In this document: positions 4,761-22,873 of the stretch, in pieces | How the letters are laid out: each line of letters opens with the position of its first letter | Numbering within the stretch: position 1 is the first letter of the stretch | NCBI RefSeq assembly: GCF_001429245.1 | Contig: NZ_LMJE01000007.1 | Location: 961,559-1,025,558, forward strand | From: Rhizobium sp. Root274 | GTDB taxonomy: Bacteria > Pseudomonadota > Alphaproteobacteria > Rhizobiales > Rhizobiaceae | DNA length: 64,000 nt | Reading direction: 5' to 3' | Made by a program: the position numbers and the translations under genes | Notes under the pieces: generated by a model | Database searches by the model: none | What the model was told of the DNA's origin: nothing | What the model saw: only the letters and a program-made list of their open reading frames with translations

Positions 4761-6287
4761 TCAGCTCGCCATTTGCCGTTTCAGGCCGGCGGCGTAGCGC
4801 ATGATCGTCTGCTCGTTGATGTCCTCGCCTTCGAGCAAACCGACCATCCGCCCCTCGCGCATGACCGCCACCCGCGTACAGAGCCCGATCACTTCCGGCA
4901 TCTCCGAGGAGATGACGATGATCGACCGTCCCTCGCGGGCGAGTGCCGCGATGAAATGATAGATCTGCTGTTTGGTGCCGACATCGATGCCGCGCGTCGG
5001 CTCGTCGATGATGATGATCTGCGGCTCGACTTCCATGATCTTGGCGAGCAGGAGCTTCTGCTGGTTGCCACCGGACATCCGCCCGACCCGCACCTTGTCG
5101 TCGCGCACCCGAATGTCGAAGCGGCGCTTGGCACGCGCCATGGCCTTCGCCTCGCTGCCGGGATCAAGGTAACCGTGACGGACGTGATTATCCATGGACT
5201 GCAGGGTCAGATTGGCGGTCATGCCCTCGCCCAGCAACAGGCCCTTGCCCTTGCGATCCTTGGTCATATAGGCGAGCCCGCGCCGGTTCGCCTCGCGAAA
5301 ATCGCCGGCGTCGAGGATCATTCCCTTCAGCCAGACCTCGCCTGACAGACGGGGACGCAAACCGGCAACGGCCTCCATAAGCTCCGTCCGCCCCGACCCG
5401 ATCAGACCGGAAAAGCCGAGCACCTCGCCCCGCTTCAGATCAAAGCTGGCATGCTTGACGAAGCCGGTTGTCAGATCCTTGACCGACAGCACGATCTCTT
5501 CGTCGACATCAGGCTCATGTTTCGTCGGATAAAGGCTCGACAATTCGCGGCCCACCATCAGCTGCGCGATCGCCTCGCCGTCGAGCGCCGAGGTCGGCGC
5601 CGTCTTCACCCACTGCCCGTCACGCAGCACCGTCACCCGGTCGGTCAGTTCCATCACCTCGTCGAGCTTGTGGGAAACGAAAACGAAGCTGGTACCGCTG
5701 GCGCGCAACTTGCGCACCTGGTCAAACAGCACTTCCGTCTCGTCGCGCGACAACACGGCGGTCGGCTCGTCCATGAACACGATGCGCGCCTTGCGGCTGA
5801 TCGCTTTGGCAATCTCGACCATCTGCTTGTCGGCAACCGCCAGCGAACTGATCAGGGCATTTTCGTCGATGTGCGAGCCGAGCTGGTCGAGCACACGCCG
5901 CGCCTCGGCCCGCATCACCTTGCGATCCAGCATGCCGAAGCGCGTGACTTCGCGTCCGAGAAAAAGGCTCTCGGTGACGGTCAGATGATCGGCAAGATTG
6001 AATTCCTGGTGGATGAGCACGATGCCGAGCGCTTCGGCGGCACCATTGGCCGGCAGCGTCACCGGCTCGCCATCAAGCAGGATGCGGCCGGCGGTCGCCT
6101 GTTCAAAGCCTGACAGGATCTTCACGAGCGTCGATTTGCCAGCACCATTCTCGCCCATGAGCGCGTGGACCTCGCCCGGCAAGACGTCGAAATCCACGCT
6201 GAACAGCACCTGGACGTCGCCAAATGATTTCGAGATACGCTCCGCCACGAGCACGGGTGTCCGTGCCTCGCCCCCAGCCAATGTCAT
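4761..6287 (-). CDS. Sugar ABC transporter ATP-binding protein, double cassette (RbsA-like)
   Basis: The 508-residue protein has two tandem nucleotide-binding domains, as in RbsA/MglA. The N-terminal cassette has Walker A GENGAGKST (residues 45-53) and Walker B IVFMDEPTAVLS. The C-terminal cassette has the degenerate P-loop GLIGSGRTE normal for this family, the signature MSGGNQQK and Walker B IIIIDEPTRGID. The start at 6287 follows GGGAGG. It is the first gene of the cluster, 40 bases from the tandem operator at 6328-6362, so its transcription is probably controlled by the divergent LacI protein. Confidence 0.93.
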   Translation of the reverse strand: MTLAGGEARTPVLVAERISKSFGDVQVLFSVDFDVLPGEVHALMGENGAGKSTLVKILSGFEQATAGRILLDGEPVTLPANGAAEALGIVLIHQEFNLADHLTVTESLFLGREVTRFGMLDRKVMRAEARRVLDQLGSHIDENALISSLAVADKQMVEIAKAISRKARIVFMDEPTAVLSRDETEVLFDQVRKLRASGTSFVFVSHKLDEVMELTDRVTVLRDGQWVKTAPTSALDGEAIAQLMVGRELSSLYPTKHEPDVDEEIVLSVKDLTTGFVKHASFDLKRGEVLGFSGLIGSGRTELMEAVAGLRPRLSGEVWLKGMILDAGDFREANRRGLAYMTKDRKGKGLLLGEGMTANLTLQSMDNHVRHGYLDPGSEAKAMARAKRRFDIRVRDDKVRVGRMSGGNQQKLLLAKIMEVEPQIIIIDEPTRGIDVGTKQQIYHFIAALAREGRSIIVISSEMPEVIGLCTRVAVMREGRMVGLLEGEDINEQTIMRYAAGLKRQMAS

Positions 6288-6327
6288 GCAATCCTCCCCG
6301 CGGCTCCTCAACCGCCATGGTGATCTG

Positions 6328-6362
6328 TGTAAACCTTTACATCGCCAATGTAAAGGTTTACA
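6328..6362. promoter_or_regulatory. Tandem LacI-type operator in divergent promoter region
   Basis: A perfect inverted repeat of 15-bp arms, TGTAAACCTTTACAT (6328-6342) and ATGTAAAGGTTTACA (6348-6362), separated by 5 bases. Each arm is itself a palindrome (TGTAAA, two bases, TTTACA), so this reads as two LacI-family dimer sites with centres 21 bp apart, on the same DNA face. It lies between the ABC ATPase gene and the lacI-type gene and probably mediates repression of the cluster and possibly autoregulation. Confidence 0.8.
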
Positions 6363-6464
6363 TCATCACATCATGGGGACAATGTGAGCCCTGCCGGCTT
6401 TCGCAGCCGCAACAGGAACGGTAAGGTCTCCAACGATTCCATGCGGATAGGGGGATGGAGCCGC

Positions 6465-7484
6465 GTGCCGAATTCAGCACCAGCGACGATCGAAGACGTG
6501 GCACGCATCGCGGAAGTGTCGATCGCGACGGTGAGCCGTGCCATCCACACGCCCGACAAGGTCGCCAAGACCACGCGCCAGCGCGTCAATCAGGCGATTG
6601 CGATCACCGGCTACACGACCAATGCCATGGCGCGCTCGTTGCGCATGGGCCGGTCGAACATGATCCTGATTCTTGCGCCGGATATCGGAGACCCGAATTT
6701 TTCCTCGACGCTGATCGGTCTCGAAAATGAAGCGCGTGCTCATGGTTACGGCGTCCTGATCGGACACACCCAGAACGATCCGGAGCGAGGCCTCGAATAC
6801 CTGAAATTCCTAAGTTCCGGCCAGGCGACAGGGCTCGTGCTGTTCACCGGCCATGAACCCTTCGGCCACCAGGTACTGGGCCAGCGCCTGCCGCCCTCGG
6901 TTGCCGTCTTCGAACCGGTCTTCGGCTCGAAAATCTCTTATGTCGGCGTCGACGACGTAGCCGGTGCAAGAAAGGCCGCCGAACACCTGCTGTCCTCCGG
7001 CCACCGCTCCATCGCCTTCATCGGTGACAGCAAGACAAGGCTTGGCCACCAGCGCCGCCGCCAGGGTTTTGACAAGGCGCTCGATGCCGCCCGCATCCCA
7101 CCCAATCAGCGCTTTGTCCTGGAAGGCGAAGGCACGATCGAAAGCGGCCGCCTAGCCGTCGAGCAACTCTTCATGCGCGACCAGCTGCCGACCGCCTTCA
7201 TGTGCGTCAACGACGCCACCGCCGTCGGCGTCATCAACGGCCTGACTGCCCGCGGCTATGACCTGCCGCACGACTTCTCCGTCATCGGCTTCGACGACGT
7301 GCCCCAGGCGACCTATCTGAACCCGGCACTCACCACCATCCGCCAGCCTCGTACGGCCATCGGTCGCCAGGCGATGGCGCTGCTGATCAAATCCCTCTCC
7401 GAGCGCCCGACCGAACGCGAGGAGATCCTGCTGATGCCGGATCTTATCGTCAGAGGGTCGGTCACGGGACCGGCAAAGCGGTAG
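6465..7484 (+). CDS. LacI family transcriptional regulator of the adjacent sugar cluster
   Basis: The protein (about 339 residues) has an N-terminal LacI helix-turn-helix (TIEDVARIAEVSIATVSRAI, residues 8-27) and hinge, then a periplasmic-binding-like effector domain with the family motifs FMCVNDATAVG and VIGFDDVP. I chose the GTG at 6465 because GGATGGAG lies just upstream and the HTH follows at the usual distance; in-frame ATGs at 6384 and 6441 would add unusual leaders. It is divergent from the ABC/isomerase/dehydrogenase genes with the tandem operator between them, so it most likely represses them until the sugar or a metabolite binds. Confidence 0.9.
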   Translation: MPNSAPATIEDVARIAEVSIATVSRAIHTPDKVAKTTRQRVNQAIAITGYTTNAMARSLRMGRSNMILILAPDIGDPNFSSTLIGLENEARAHGYGVLIGHTQNDPERGLEYLKFLSSGQATGLVLFTGHEPFGHQVLGQRLPPSVAVFEPVFGSKISYVGVDDVAGARKAAEHLLSSGHRSIAFIGDSKTRLGHQRRRQGFDKALDAARIPPNQRFVLEGEGTIESGRLAVEQLFMRDQLPTAFMCVNDATAVGVINGLTARGYDLPHDFSVIGFDDVPQATYLNPALTTIRQPRTAIGRQAMALLIKSLSERPTEREEILLMPDLIVRGSVTGPAKR

Positions 7485-19185: not shown

Positions 19186-20952
19186 ATGACATACGAGCAA
19201 ATTCTTGCCTTCGGCCTGATCGCCGTGATGATGGCGGCCTTCCTCTGGGAAAAGTTCCGTTACGATGTCGTTGCCTGCGTCGCCCTTGTTGCCGCAGTCA
19301 CCCTCGGCTTGATGCCGGCCAAAGAGGCCTTTTCCGGCTTTTCCGACGACCTCGTGATCATCGTCGGCAGCGCGCTTGTGGTCAGTGCCGGCGTCGCACG
19401 CTCAGGTGTGGTCGACCTCGCGATTAAGCGCTTCTTTCCAGCGCTCTCTTCGCTGCACGGACAGATGCTCCTTCTGTTGATCACCGTGACCATCCTCTCG
19501 GCCTTTATCAAGAATATCGGCGCGCTTGCCATCATGATGCCGGTCGCCTTCCAGTTCGCCCGCCGCTCGAACGTACCCCCGTCGGTGTTTCTCATGCCGA
19601 TGGCGTTTTCGTCCCTGCTGGGCGGCCTGATGACGCAGATCGGCACGTCGCCCAACATCGCCGTCTCGCGCCTGCGCCAGGAGCTGACGGGCGAGCCTTT
19701 CACGATGTTCGACTTCACCCCCGTTGGTGCAACGCTCGCCCTGGCCGGCATCCTCTTCCTCATCTTCTTCTACTGGCTCGTGCCACGCCGGGAAAATCAG
19801 AACCCTTCGCTGCAGGAGGCTCTCGAAGCCTCGAGTTTCGCAACCGAGGCCCATGTGCCGCCGCAATCGCCCTTCGTGCTAAAGACCCTCAATGATCTTC
19901 TGAAGACAGCCCAGGGTGAAGTCACCGCGACAGCGTTGCTGCGCGGCCAGACGCGCCTATCACCCTTCCCGGACATTCTCCTGCATGCCGAAGATATCAT
20001 CCTGTTGGAGGGCCCATCTGATGCGCTGGACAGGATCGTCTCGCAGGCCGGCCTCACTCTGGCCGGCCACGAAAAGCCTGACGCCAAGCGCGGGGACCTC
20101 TCGTCGATCGAGGCCGTAATCGGGCGAGGCTCGCCCTTGATTGGCGAAAAGGCGAAGGAACTCGCCCTCGTGCACACCTACGGCGTAAACCTTCTGGCTG
20201 TCAGCCGGCAGGGCAAGCGCATCCGCGAGCGGCTGGGTGAACTGACCCTACGCTCTGGCGACGTCGTGCTGCTACAGGGCCTGCGCCAGCAAATGCCGTC
20301 GATCCTGACTGAACTCGGGTGCCTGCCGCTCGCTGAACGCGAAATCCTGCTCGGCACGAGCCGCAATGTGCTCATTCCGCTGGCAATCCTCGTCGTTGCC
20401 ATGGGGGCGACTGCACTCGGCATCGCCCCGGTCGCCATGGCCTTCTTTACCGCAGCGCTCGCCATGGTGGCCTTCGGCGTCATTCCCGTCAGCGAAGTCT
20501 ACCGTGCAGTCGACGGGCCGATCCTCGTGATGCTTGCGGCTCTAATCCCGGTCGCCGACACGCTGCGAACCTCGGGTGGCAGCGACGTCATCGCCGGCTG
20601 GCTGAATGCGGCGGCGGGTGGCATGCCAGCCTGGGGTGCCGTCGCGATGATCCTCGTGACCGCGATGGCGGTCACTCCCTTCCTCAACAACGCCGCCACC
20701 GTGCTGGTGATGGCGCCGATCGCAGCAAGCTTCGCCAACGGCCTCGGTTACAAGCCGGAAGCTTTTCTGATGGCGGTTGCCATCGGCGCAGGCTGCGACT
20801 TCCTCACGCCGATCGGTCACCAGTGCAACACCCTCGTCATGGGCCCGGGTGGCTACAAATTCTCCGATTATCCTCGTCTGGGCTTGCCGCTGTCGTTTCT
20901 GATCATCCTGGTCTCGGTGCCGGCGCTGCTGATGGTTTGGCCAGTGACGTAA
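19186..20952 (+). CDS. SLC13/DASS-type permease with two RCK_C (TrkA-C) domains
   Basis: The 588-residue protein has an N-terminal membrane half (residues 1-200, including MPAKEAFSGFSDDLVIIVGS), two cytoplasmic RCK_C domains (about 225-285, FPDILLHAEDIILLEGPSDA, and 300-390, GELTLRSGDVVLLQG), and a C-terminal membrane half with ITAMAVTPFLNNAATVLVMAP and DFLTPIGHQCN. This is the layout of the bacterial SLC13 family permeases of the citrate/sulfate transporter type. Transported anion is not predictable. It stands alone between terC and the gap before gltX. Confidence 0.88.
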   Translation: MTYEQILAFGLIAVMMAAFLWEKFRYDVVACVALVAAVTLGLMPAKEAFSGFSDDLVIIVGSALVVSAGVARSGVVDLAIKRFFPALSSLHGQMLLLLITVTILSAFIKNIGALAIMMPVAFQFARRSNVPPSVFLMPMAFSSLLGGLMTQIGTSPNIAVSRLRQELTGEPFTMFDFTPVGATLALAGILFLIFFYWLVPRRENQNPSLQEALEASSFATEAHVPPQSPFVLKTLNDLLKTAQGEVTATALLRGQTRLSPFPDILLHAEDIILLEGPSDALDRIVSQAGLTLAGHEKPDAKRGDLSSIEAVIGRGSPLIGEKAKELALVHTYGVNLLAVSRQGKRIRERLGELTLRSGDVVLLQGLRQQMPSILTELGCLPLAEREILLGTSRNVLIPLAILVVAMGATALGIAPVAMAFFTAALAMVAFGVIPVSEVYRAVDGPILVMLAALIPVADTLRTSGGSDVIAGWLNAAAGGMPAWGAVAMILVTAMAVTPFLNNAATVLVMAPIAASFANGLGYKPEAFLMAVAIGAGCDFLTPIGHQCNTLVMGPGGYKFSDYPRLGLPLSFLIILVSVPALLMVWPVT

Positions 20953-20980: not shown

Positions 20981-21009
20981 AAAACCTGCGTCGGCGGGAC
21001 GCAGGTTTT
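20981..21009. terminator. Bidirectional intrinsic terminator
   Basis: Perfect 12-bp stem AAAACCTGCGTC / GACGCAGGTTTT with a five-base loop. It ends the SLC13 gene on the plus strand (tail TTTTCC) and has a better T-tract on the minus strand (TTTTTCTTT), where it could end a transcript coming from the candidate RNA at 21034-21150. Confidence 0.8.
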
Positions 21010-21033: not shown

Positions 21034-21150
21034 GAGCGCAGGCCGGACGGTTAAGGGGCTCGCCTGCCATTTCGTTGGCCACGGAAAGAAACCGGAAAAA
21101 CTTCCGTGTTCCCCATATCCCGTCGCGTCCGGTTGGCACGGCCTGCGCTC
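21034..21150. ncRNA. Candidate structured RNA (strand undecided)
   Basis: No credible protein is encoded here. GAGCGCAGG (21034-21042) pairs with CCTGCGCTC (21142-21150), directly followed by CCGGACG (21043-21049) with CGTCCGG (21126-21132), giving a 16-bp closing stem with a single 9-base bulge. Inside, CACGGAA and TTCCGTG (about 21069-21109) form an apical hairpin and GGGG/CCCC can pair in between. The minus-strand version would run into the strong terminator at 20981-21009. The plus-strand version is followed by a CCCG/CGGG hairpin and T-runs near 21199-21216. A long closed hairpin is typical of 6S-like or regulatory RNAs, but I do not recognise a known family. Confidence 0.35.
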
Positions 21151-21415
21151 TGTCATAATAACGCCGAGCCCGCCTTCGGGTTCCGGGCCATCGAACATTT
21201 TTTTGAAGTTTTTTTTGGGTCCCTCCCGCAGGGCGGCAAAATCCGTGGTTTTTCTTGACGCAAGGGCCTGAATATGGCCTAAGGCCAGCCGGTGGAACCG
21301 GCTTGCGCAGGCAGGCTTCCTCGCCTGTTTCCGGTGAGCCGCCACACTGATTTCGCACATTGTCCCGATCCGGCGCTTGTTGCCCGATCACCCGCACGCA
21401 CCACGAGCTTTATCC
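21151..21415. other. Non-coding leader region of gltX
   Basis: This is the right part of a 463-base gene-free stretch. It holds a GCCCG/CGGGC hairpin (about 21168-21187), two T-runs (21199-21205 and 21210-21217), a GC-rich CCCGCAGGGCGG segment, and CTTGAC at 21254-21259, which could be the -35 of a gltX promoter (the -10 is unclear). Downstream, GCAGGC and GCCTGT can form a leader hairpin. I see no recognisable riboswitch. Confidence 0.4.
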
Positions 21416-22873
21416 ATGACCAAGTCCGGCGTCCGCGTCCGCATCGCACCCTCCCCGACCGGCGAGCCCCATGTCGGCACCGCCTACATCGCGCTGTTCA
21501 ACTATCTCTTCGCGAAGAAATTCGACGGCGAGTTCATCCTGCGCATCGAGGACACCGACGCAACGCGCTCGACCGCCGAGTTCGAGCAGAAAGTGCTAGA
21601 CGCGCTGAAATGGACCGGCCTCACCTGGTCGGAAGGTCCTGACGTCGGCGGCCCCTACGGCCCCTACCGCCAGTCCGAGCGCAAGGATCTCTATCGCCCC
21701 TACGTCGACAAGATGCTTGCCAATGGCGGCGCCTTCCGCTGTTTCTGCACGCCCGAGCGACTGGAGAGCATGCGCGAAGCCCAGCGCGCTGCCGGCAAGC
21801 CGCCTGGTTATGACGGCCTCTGCCTGCACATAAAGGCGGAGGAAGTGACCGCCCGCGTTGAAGCCGGCGAGCCCCATGTTGTGCGCCTCAAGGTCCCGAC
21901 CGAGGGCTCTTGCGATTTCCACGACGGCGTCTATGGCGATGTCTCAATCCCCTGGGAAAGCGTCGACATGCAGGTCCTGCTCAAGGGCGACGGCATGCCG
22001 ACCTATCACATGGCAAACGTCGTCGACGACCACATGATGAAGATCACCCACGTCGCCCGCGGCGAGGAGTGGCTGGCCTCGGTGCCGAAGCACATCCTGA
22101 TCTACCGCCATCTCGGTCTCGAGCCGCCGGTCTTCATGCATCTGTCGCTGATGCGCAATCACGACAAGTCGAAGCTGTCAAAACGCAAGAACCCGACCTC
22201 GATCTCCTACTACTCGGCCCTCGGCTACATGCCGGAAGCCCTGATGAACTTCCTCGGCCTGTTCTTCATCCAGATCGCCGAAGGCGAAGAACTGCTGACC
22301 ATGGAAGAGCTGATCGCCAAGTTCGATCCTGACAACCTCTCCAAGGCCGGCGCGATCTTCGACATTCAGAAGCTCGACTGGCTGAACGGCCGCTGGCTGC
22401 GCGAAAAGCTGTCGCCGGAAGAGTTTGTTGCCCGCGTCCTCGACTGGTCAATGGAAAACGACCGTCTCGTCGAAGGCCTGAAGCTCGCGCAGAGCCGCGT
22501 CACCAAGCTCGGCGAACTGCCGCCGCTTGCCGGCTTCCTGCTCGCCAACGACGTTGGCCTGACACCCGCCTCCTTCGGCGGGTTGAAGACCAGCCCGGCG
22601 GAAACGCTCGAAATCGTCACCACCGTTCAGGCGGATCTCGAAAAGATCCTCGAATGGAACGTCACGACGATCGAGGAGGAACTCCGCGCGATCTCCGAGC
22701 GCATGGGCAAAAAGCTCCGCGTCGTCACCCCGCCCCTCTTCGTCGCCGTCTCCGGCAGCCAGCGTTCTCTGCCGCTGTTTGACTCGATGGCGCTGCTCGG
22801 CCGCTCGGTCGTGCGCCAGCGTTTGAAGGTTGCAATCCAGGTGCTGACCGCGATGGCGGGTGCCGCGAATTGA
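21416..22873 (+). CDS. gltX: Glutamyl-tRNA synthetase
   Basis: The 485-residue class I aminoacyl-tRNA synthetase charges tRNA-Glu (and perhaps tRNA-Gln if the organism uses the amidotransferase route) in the cytoplasm. The HIGH-equivalent is PSPTGEPHVGT (H19), and the KMSKS-equivalent is KLSKR at residues 253-257. The Rossmann catalytic domain occupies about 1-320 and the helical anticodon-binding domain the rest. ATG 21416 starts directly before GVRVRIAPSPTG; an in-frame ATG at 21377 would add an unrelated leader. It is followed by a repeat and then lysS. Confidence 0.96.
   Translation: MTKSGVRVRIAPSPTGEPHVGTAYIALFNYLFAKKFDGEFILRIEDTDATRSTAEFEQKVLDALKWTGLTWSEGPDVGGPYGPYRQSERKDLYRPYVDKMLANGGAFRCFCTPERLESMREAQRAAGKPPGYDGLCLHIKAEEVTARVEAGEPHVVRLKVPTEGSCDFHDGVYGDVSIPWESVDMQVLLKGDGMPTYHMANVVDDHMMKITHVARGEEWLASVPKHILIYRHLGLEPPVFMHLSLMRNHDKSKLSKRKNPTSISYYSALGYMPEALMNFLGLFFIQIAEGEELLTMEELIAKFDPDNLSKAGAIFDIQKLDWLNGRWLREKLSPEEFVARVLDWSMENDRLVEGLKLAQSRVTKLGELPPLAGFLLANDVGLTPASFGGLKTSPAETLEIVTTVQADLEKILEWNVTTIEEELRAISERMGKKLRVVTPPLFVAVSGSQRSLPLFDSMALLGRSVVRQRLKVAIQVLTAMAGAAN

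Follow-up and report, generated by a model that had tools for sequence, protein, structure and literature searches.

An Atu_At1 RNA of Rhizobium with a conserved loop-to-loop pseudoknot, a putative general stress promoter and relatives in phage contigs

The interval between an SLC13-family transporter gene and gltX in Rhizobium sp. Root274 lies within the 64-kb stretch of DNA analyzed here (the window) and raises the question of what the long closed structure in it represents, on which strand it is made and what it may do. An earlier note, made from the DNA alone, had taken it for a discrete small RNA of a new, unrecognized family upstream of gltX. Comparison with Rfam yielded Atu_At1 (RF02496) as the sole match over the curated threshold in the whole window (21148-21040, minus strand; 110.4 bits vs. 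a gathering score of 60, E 1.8e-18), with the model covered at full length (1-108 of 108) and the score for membership surpassed. This match to a known family removes the novelty, and a new RNA family is ruled out. In agreement with the earlier note, neither 6S, tmRNA, RNase P, SRP nor any other Rfam family rose above its gathering score in the window, and ARAGORN found no tRNA and no tmRNA there; under relaxed settings, four other families in the surrounding kilobase gave E values of 0.18-4.4, which are chance matches far under their gathering scores. The assignment of the element, present as one copy in this genome, to the catalogued Atu_At1 family as a chromosomal copy is well supported for both family and predicted fold. 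The locus is arranged as follows:

19186-20952, plus strand: gene for an SLC13/CitMHS-family transporter with TrkA_C domains (Pfam scan), the convergent neighbor outside the RNA
20981-21009, both strands: palindrome resembling a bidirectional intrinsic terminator, which would end the RNA on the minus strand and SLC13 on the plus strand
21040-21148, minus strand: core of the Atu_At1 RNA, from the Rfam match
21160-21184, minus strand: putative sigma-EcfG-type promoter by motif, GGAAC-N17-GTT (GGAAC 21184-21180, CGTT 21163-21160)
21377-22873, plus strand: gltX, the other neighbor, a listed open reading frame in which an in-frame ATG at 21416 may be the true start

Because the Rfam match and the promoter direction both indicate the minus strand, we assign the RNA to that strand, and it therefore points away from gltX; a gltX leader is ruled out, since the RNA runs in the opposite direction. 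The link to gltX is one of neighborhood only: among the 179 copies gathered in this study, some of them duplicates, 34 have the two genes, SLC13 and gltX, within reach, flanking the RNA as in the window in 30 and lying on one side of it in four (L080, L114, L167 and L176). The terminator said to lie about 25 bases from the end of the structure was recovered as the palindrome at 20981-21009, and the window copy has a U-rich terminator tail. As had also been remarked, minus-strand frames (164 and 272 codons) cross the element, and base-pair covariation argues for an RNA rather than for these protein frames.

The long closed structure described earlier at 21034-21150 was borne out, as the region folds better than its shuffles on the minus strand (z -2.9, with 0/200 shuffles as good) and also on the plus strand (z -2.6, 3/200); for the sequence running from the predicted start to the end of the terminator, hence with the terminator included, z was -5.4. 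The GC-rich composition of the region and the folding of its plus strand could be read as a chance hairpin or as a by-product of the bidirectional terminator, but the E value of the Rfam match speaks against this and covariation refutes it, and we give this reading practically no credence. For covariation, we gathered the 179 copies (58 from whole-genome searches, 118 from among the matches listed by a pattern scan of named genome contigs, two from plasmid records and one from a viral contig, L061) and aligned the 93 copies left after dereplication below 88% identity, which was applied because some of the named contigs are the same records as other genomes. RNAalifold predicted 26 pairs on this alignment, with changes on both sides in 25, and a 34-pair structure was paired in 95.2% of 3154 cells, with double changes in 29 of its pairs. 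The fold supported by these comparisons would consist of a 12-bp closing stem, a bulged loop, stems of 5 bp and 4 bp, two hairpins and a loop-loop pseudoknot:

21139-21150, minus strand: 5' strand of closing stem P1 (pairs with 21034-21045), the inner pairs of which covary; begins 9 nt past the promoter GTT
21034-21045, minus strand: 3' strand of closing stem P1, with covariation of the inner pairs
21128-21134, minus strand: pseudoknot strand 1, AACCGGA, in the bulged loop; covariation in bacterial and viral sets
21120-21124, minus strand: 5' strand of stem P3, GACGG (pairs with 21046-21050); 95.5% of cells paired, double changes in 5/5 pairs
21080-21108, minus strand: hairpin with the U-rich loop that forms the pseudoknot; 93.7% of cells paired, double changes in 7/7 pairs
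21090-21096, minus strand: pseudoknot strand 2, UCCGGUU, in the loop of the preceding hairpin; covariation in bacterial and viral sets
21066-21079, minus strand: short hairpin GCC-AACGAAAU-GGC, its loop highly conserved in the alignment of 93 copies
21055-21058, minus strand: 3' strand of stem P4 (pairs with 21111-21114); 99.2% of cells paired, double changes in 4/4 pairs

The loop-loop helix of 7 bp, joining AACCGGA (21134-21128) to UCCGGUU (21096-21090), is paired in 99.4% of 651 cells, with double changes in 4 pairs (49 cells). Neither its paired share nor its covariation score was reached in any of 500 shuffles, whereas two measures were less extreme, with the count of double-changed pairs reached in 12/500 and that of pair types in 39/500, all of these shuffles ignoring relatedness; a shift of 1-3 columns destroyed the pairing. 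The pattern used to scan the named contigs left the first loop unconstrained and fixed part of the second (column 64 as a purine, with columns 61 and 65 free), which accounts in part for the invariance of columns 62, 63, 66 and 67; the near-invariance of many unpaired bases is likewise in part a product of this pattern. The structure line of the RF02496 model lacks the pseudoknot and has the first loop paired with itself in a short stem that conflicts with it. This short 5' hairpin (4 bp, columns 13-16/22-25) displayed no covariation beyond shuffles, nor did an alternative 4-bp hairpin proposed for the first loop. The stem of 16 bp with a 9-base bulge given in the earlier note can be drawn on the single sequence, but its inner seven pairs fail on the 93 relatives, being paired in 75.9% of 651 cells with 499/500 shuffles at least as high; likewise, the compensatory changes that it named as a check are found in the inner pairs of the 12-bp closing stem but not in that inner stem. 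The putative loop-to-loop pseudoknot is a conserved family feature added by this analysis. The loop-loop pairing could also occur between two molecules instead of within one, two arrangements that covariation does not separate.

Upstream of the RNA, the motif at 21184-21160 lies at the distance from the start expected of a sigma-EcfG regulon member. It follows a consensus, GGAAC-N16/17-cGTT, which we take to be the one known under the name EcfG, and by motif only the promoter may be placed in the sigma-EcfG (general stress) class. Similar RpoE2-dependent promoters are printed in PMC6180224. Among the 178 copies with sufficient upstream sequence, GGAAC-N15..18-NTT occurs within 60 nt upstream in 133, compared with 53/6200 control windows from the same loci; in the dereplicated set, the counts are 63/92 copies vs. 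26/3168 controls. The tighter GGAAC-N16,17-GTT was found in 89/178. The looser pattern as written is absent in 45/178 copies, some of which have near-variants at the same place by eye, and a loosened -35 pattern captured 156/178 copies but also 797/6200 controls. Of 131 copies with the motif, 65 have a longest perfect P1 helix that starts 8-9 nt past the -10 element, and 31 form another group at 13-15 nt; because of this 8-9 nt spacing, the RNA probably begins at or near the first base of the transcript. Within the window, the only other GGAAC-N16/17-CGTT match is at 44950-44926 on the minus strand. Elsewhere in the genome, an EcfG-type motif precedes one of the two nepR genes, a PhyR-like ORF and a CsbD-like ORF, among others, the names other than NepR being assigned by eye. 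Around the nepR loci (L190 and L191; contig C7 near 1.05 Mb), we also observed PhyR- and ECF-like ORFs by eye and a cluster of several EcfG-type motifs.

A general stress response promoter in front of an intergenic sRNA recalls GsrN, the sigma-T-dependent RNA of Caulobacter. According to PMC5869019, BLASTn matches to GsrN are limited to Caulobacteraceae and GsrN acts via a C-rich 5' loop; loop-based homologues have been proposed in Rhizobiaceae near the ecfG locus, with GsrN of C. crescentus itself an exception to this location near ecfG-nepR-phyR. The window RNA, by contrast, has no such C-rich loop by eye, its 5' loop (UGCCAACCGGACGC) being, also by eye, the one engaged in the putative pseudoknot, and at C7:982598-982706 it lies 67-72 kb from the two NepR matches (C7:1049813 and 1054288). 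On these two grounds, a GsrN orthologue was rejected.

Evidence that this family is transcribed comes from Agrobacterium fabrum C58, the homologue of which (plasmid pAt 55269-55154) coincides with pAT_55271R of PMC3738593. In Table 4 of that paper, pAT_55271R measures 118 nt by RNA-seq and ~140 nt by Northern, is marked as validated by 5' and 3' RACE and has RPKM values (-TEX) of 45 in log phase, 866 in stationary phase, 3597 in AB medium and 877 in AB medium with inducer. From position and name, we infer that pAT_55271R is the namesake of Atu_At1. The C58 and window copies are homologous, the window copy being a full-length model match over the gathering score, but they differ in setting, the window copy being chromosomal, convergent with SLC13 and provided with a terminator, and the C58 copy residing on pAt 44 nt upstream of ligD. 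The rise over log phase agrees with a general stress promoter without proving it, and by eye the C58 copy has a weak -10 element, CTT. For S. meliloti, PMC3616915 reports 23 sRNAs with sigma-E2 motifs, and the passages of PMC3927594 that deal with rhizobial sRNA families name neither At1 nor gltX. The detected C58 homologue, together with the Rfam match, the double changes in 29/34 pairs, the promoter motif and the terminator, upholds the "discrete small RNA" of the earlier note. A discrete RNA in C58, a stress-type promoter and the U-rich tail in the window would also befit an ordinary Hfq-type sRNA pairing with mRNAs in trans via an exposed segment. However, the best conserved segments sit in the pseudoknot or in short loops, a conserved loop of the anti-Shine-Dalgarno type was not seen by eye, and At1 is not named in the main text of PMC4201532, the supplement of which holds the list of Hfq-bound ncRNAs; we consider this explanation rather unlikely.

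RF02496 has matches in 33 of 60 relatives (31 over the cut-off) and in 37 of 297 genomes of the order (32 over the cut-off). The matches listed, 80 names among at least 118 pattern matches, include Rhizobium, Mesorhizobium, Devosia, Shinella, Ensifer, Bosea, Pseudochrobactrum and Brucella gallinifaecis, as well as Pseudooceanicola, Oceanicola, Pseudoruegeria, Roseinatronobacter and Sphingomonas, which we take to be outside the order. A pattern scan across the phylum matched 10 of 398 genomes, 8 in the family of the host and 2 elsewhere in its class, with no match outside the class among the 398; our own model matched 9 of 200 phylum genomes, all in the same family or order. When the class was searched with our model (289 genomes) and with the pattern (385), only Rhizobium sp. 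Root274 matched, the scattered copies outside the order having come from other scans; misses of the model search are weak evidence because few candidates were scored per genome. A record titled as an Arenimonas MAG (L123, a gammaproteobacterium by title) carries a Rhizobiaceae-type SLC13 gene along with the RNA, probably owing to a binning error.

The genomic setting of the bacterial copies is varied. A simple and crude codon score, under which several called ORFs are doubtful, divided the 179 copies into 72 leader-like ones, with an ORF on their own strand no more than 150 nt away, 69 that face a convergent ORF of better score and 38 left undecided; a same-strand neighbor would be expected by chance for about half of random sRNA genes. 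Among the 72 leader-like ORFs, only 39 show a Shine-Dalgarno-like core where their start was called, 30 start within 60 nt of the end of the aligned core, and the spacing from the RNA to the scored ORF ranges from 10 to 149 nt. Terminator-like sites accompany 38/69 convergent copies vs. 5/72 leader-like ones, with 170/1790 in random stretches; this contrast is weaker after dereplication (10/32 vs. 3/37, Fisher p 0.03), and a bidirectional terminator is in any case to be expected where two genes converge. A Pfam scan of 28 chosen downstream proteins, run alongside the SLC13 and gltX proteins of the window, assigned LigD, ExoIII-type nuclease, DJ-1/PfpI, GFA, DUF2171, PRC barrel, DUF892, ThrS, LysE, pyridoxamine-oxidase-like, GXWXG, MASE1 histidine kinase, CitMHS transporter, DUF763 and a few others, while 10 had no Pfam family. 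Out of 17 plasmid records, 8 list no gene in the stretch (7 of these being nearly unannotated). Annotated plasmid records, which include others besides these 17, are in partial agreement with the scan: the gene directly downstream is ligD (two records), xth, GXWXG, HlyD or DUF763, and five records have a convergent or ambiguous neighbor. In several Rhizobium/Agrobacterium genomes, ligD follows the RNA (annotated in L064 and L198, by eye in L008, L109 and L170), making a link between general stress and end-joining repair possible; we presume ligD and other downstream genes to be stress genes, and no literature support for ligD as an RpoE2 target was found. In L148, an SLC13-family gene (5125-6906, minus strand) that is 45% identical to that of the window lies on the same strand just downstream of the RNA; in the window, the two are convergent.

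Two readings in cis bear on the leader-like copies, namely 5'-end protection and riboswitch-like control. In the first, the pseudoknotted stem, placed at the start of the transcript or, in phages, where a tRNA is processed, would shield stress or phage mRNAs from 5'-end-dependent decay, with the stand-alone copy being derived. The position of P1 close behind the -10 element and the short distance of many same-strand ORFs from the core are in line with this reading, but relatives of the window copy retain the fold though facing a convergent gene, and a plain stem would suffice for protection, yet many unpaired bases are nearly invariant, even if this is partly imposed by the pattern; we regard it as plausible yet unlikely. 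In the second, the junction would bind a stress-linked small molecule and control the downstream gene, a scheme that suits the strong conservation of unpaired bases surrounding the pseudoknotted junction and the leader-like position before varied genes, some of them presumably of the stress type, and before phage genes. This riboswitch-like scheme is quite unlikely in our view: the variable spacing leaves no constant expression platform, terminator-like sites in leader-like copies are rare and fall below the background, the downstream genes have no common pathway, and the window copy controls nothing in cis.

The family also extends into viral contigs. A scan of IMG/VR with a pattern from the conserved 3' half yielded 50 contigs, 23 of which scored 74.7-106.5 bits with our own model (L059-L063, L207, L212, L214, L216-L218, L222, L223, L225, L231, L232, L235, L238, L241, L243, L245, L247 and L248) and three 27.4, 18.9 and 15.6 bits; the other 24 gave no match to the model at E up to 1. 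A further scan added a more distant viral member (L249:3807-3918, minus strand; 52.7 bits), which suggests that the family is wider than the reach of the present model. The RF02496 model exceeded its gathering score in 12/12 viral loci tested, with no other Rfam family doing so there besides tRNAs. The 23 pieces range in GC from 0.36 to 0.64, and BLAST of two viral copies against INPHARED phages gave no match. L061 is identical to the bacterial contig L084 around the RNA and is thus a provirus or host flank. With this contig and four duplicates left out, 18 distinct viral copies were aligned with the window copy. In these 19 sequences, the pseudoknot is paired in 99.2% of 133 cells, with double changes in 5/7 pairs and variants such as AACGUGA/UCACGUU, AACUAGA/UCUAGUU, AACGGAU/AUCCGUU and AAACCGG/CCGGUUU, among others; paired share and covariation score were reached in 0/500 shuffles, the number of double-changed pairs in 29/500 and the number of pair types in 263/500, relatedness again being ignored. 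The promoter pattern was found in none of the 23 viral copies, near-variants being seen by eye in L061, L231 and L235.

PHROGs families assigned to proteins of 14 of the 23 contigs include a terminase or portal in five (L247, L245, L060, L059 and L231), a DNA polymerase in L238, L243 and L225, a DnaB-like helicase in L061, and nucleases, RNA-binding or unknown phage families in L063, L212, L223 and L248, with nothing informative among the proteins of L222. In 16/23 contigs, the next same-strand ORF with a Shine-Dalgarno-like core lies 13-123 nt downstream, the choice of ORF having favored such starts. The RNA match starts at most a few bases from where a tRNA-Met ends in L218, L245 and L247 (L218 and L245 being near-identical there), an arrangement that also favors the protective 5' end, and it is found within tRNA arrays in L212 (23 tRNAs) and L216 (21 tRNAs). 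Its occurrence beside phage tRNA genes, together with the C58 RNA, which is discrete although ligD begins 44 nt downstream and the scan found no terminator-like site, might hint at a self-cleaving ribozyme or an RNA-processing site; nevertheless, the P1 sequence varies at both ends, no conserved site of cleavage was noticed where the 3' end had been observed and the window copy has a terminator, all of which render this idea very improbable. The phi29 packaging RNA is a junction with complementary loops, and some viral Atu_At1 copies are likewise located upstream of terminase genes, but the 12 viral loci contain no such Rfam match above the gathering score, and the host copies and other phage contexts are unrelated to packaging. 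Motifs of the manA and wcaG type are pseudoknotted RNAs in leaders and phage genomes as well; they differ in that no further Rfam family comes close to its gathering score in the kilobase around the window RNA and, tRNAs aside, none exceeds it in the 12 viral loci.

Taken together, the best explanation overall, which we hold to be probable though by a modest measure, is that the window encodes a stress-induced, stand-alone structured RNA of ~175 nt, a copy of Atu_At1 that would act through its fold, while its molecular function as deduced from sequence is uncertain. Under general stress, sigma-EcfG would transcribe a discrete RNA of ~175 nt with the closing stem at its very start and a compact, pseudoknotted junction as its fold; this fold, rather than an antisense seed, would bind a protein or small molecule in trans. 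Many conserved unpaired bases in combination with a pseudoknot point to recognition of a specific partner. The location at transcript 5' ends, with an mRNA behind the module in some cases and the module alone in others, has to be accounted for along with this, and action in trans is the simplest reading for the window copy because its terminator and convergent neighbor are conserved among relatives. In other genomes, the module may form the 5' end of transcripts from stress genes, protecting or regulating the mRNA, and phages may carry it so as to exploit or intercept that partner. Given the leader-like position of many other copies, the original function could have been in cis. More tentatively, and with somewhat more doubt than confidence, we surmise that Atu_At1, rather than an sRNA family of Rhizobiales, is a broader class of pseudoknotted RNA, placed behind the alphaproteobacterial general stress promoter either alone or at the 5' ends of stress mRNAs and present also in diverse phages, in some behind a tRNA, with a common protein or ligand recognizing the fold.

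In the literature searched, with most subscription papers outside its coverage, we found neither the pseudoknot nor the stress-promoter link nor the phage copies described. The window copy is an ordinary member of a catalogued family, and it is for this family that the comparison matters: an orphan Rfam entry gains a likely regulon, the general stress response, as well as a defined tertiary contact for which natural compensatory variants are now available, a stand-alone form that occurs naturally, and phage versions to set against those of the hosts, all of which make the entry testable. If Atu_At1 is indeed a broader class with a common partner, that partner would be a shared contact point of host stress physiology and phage infection.
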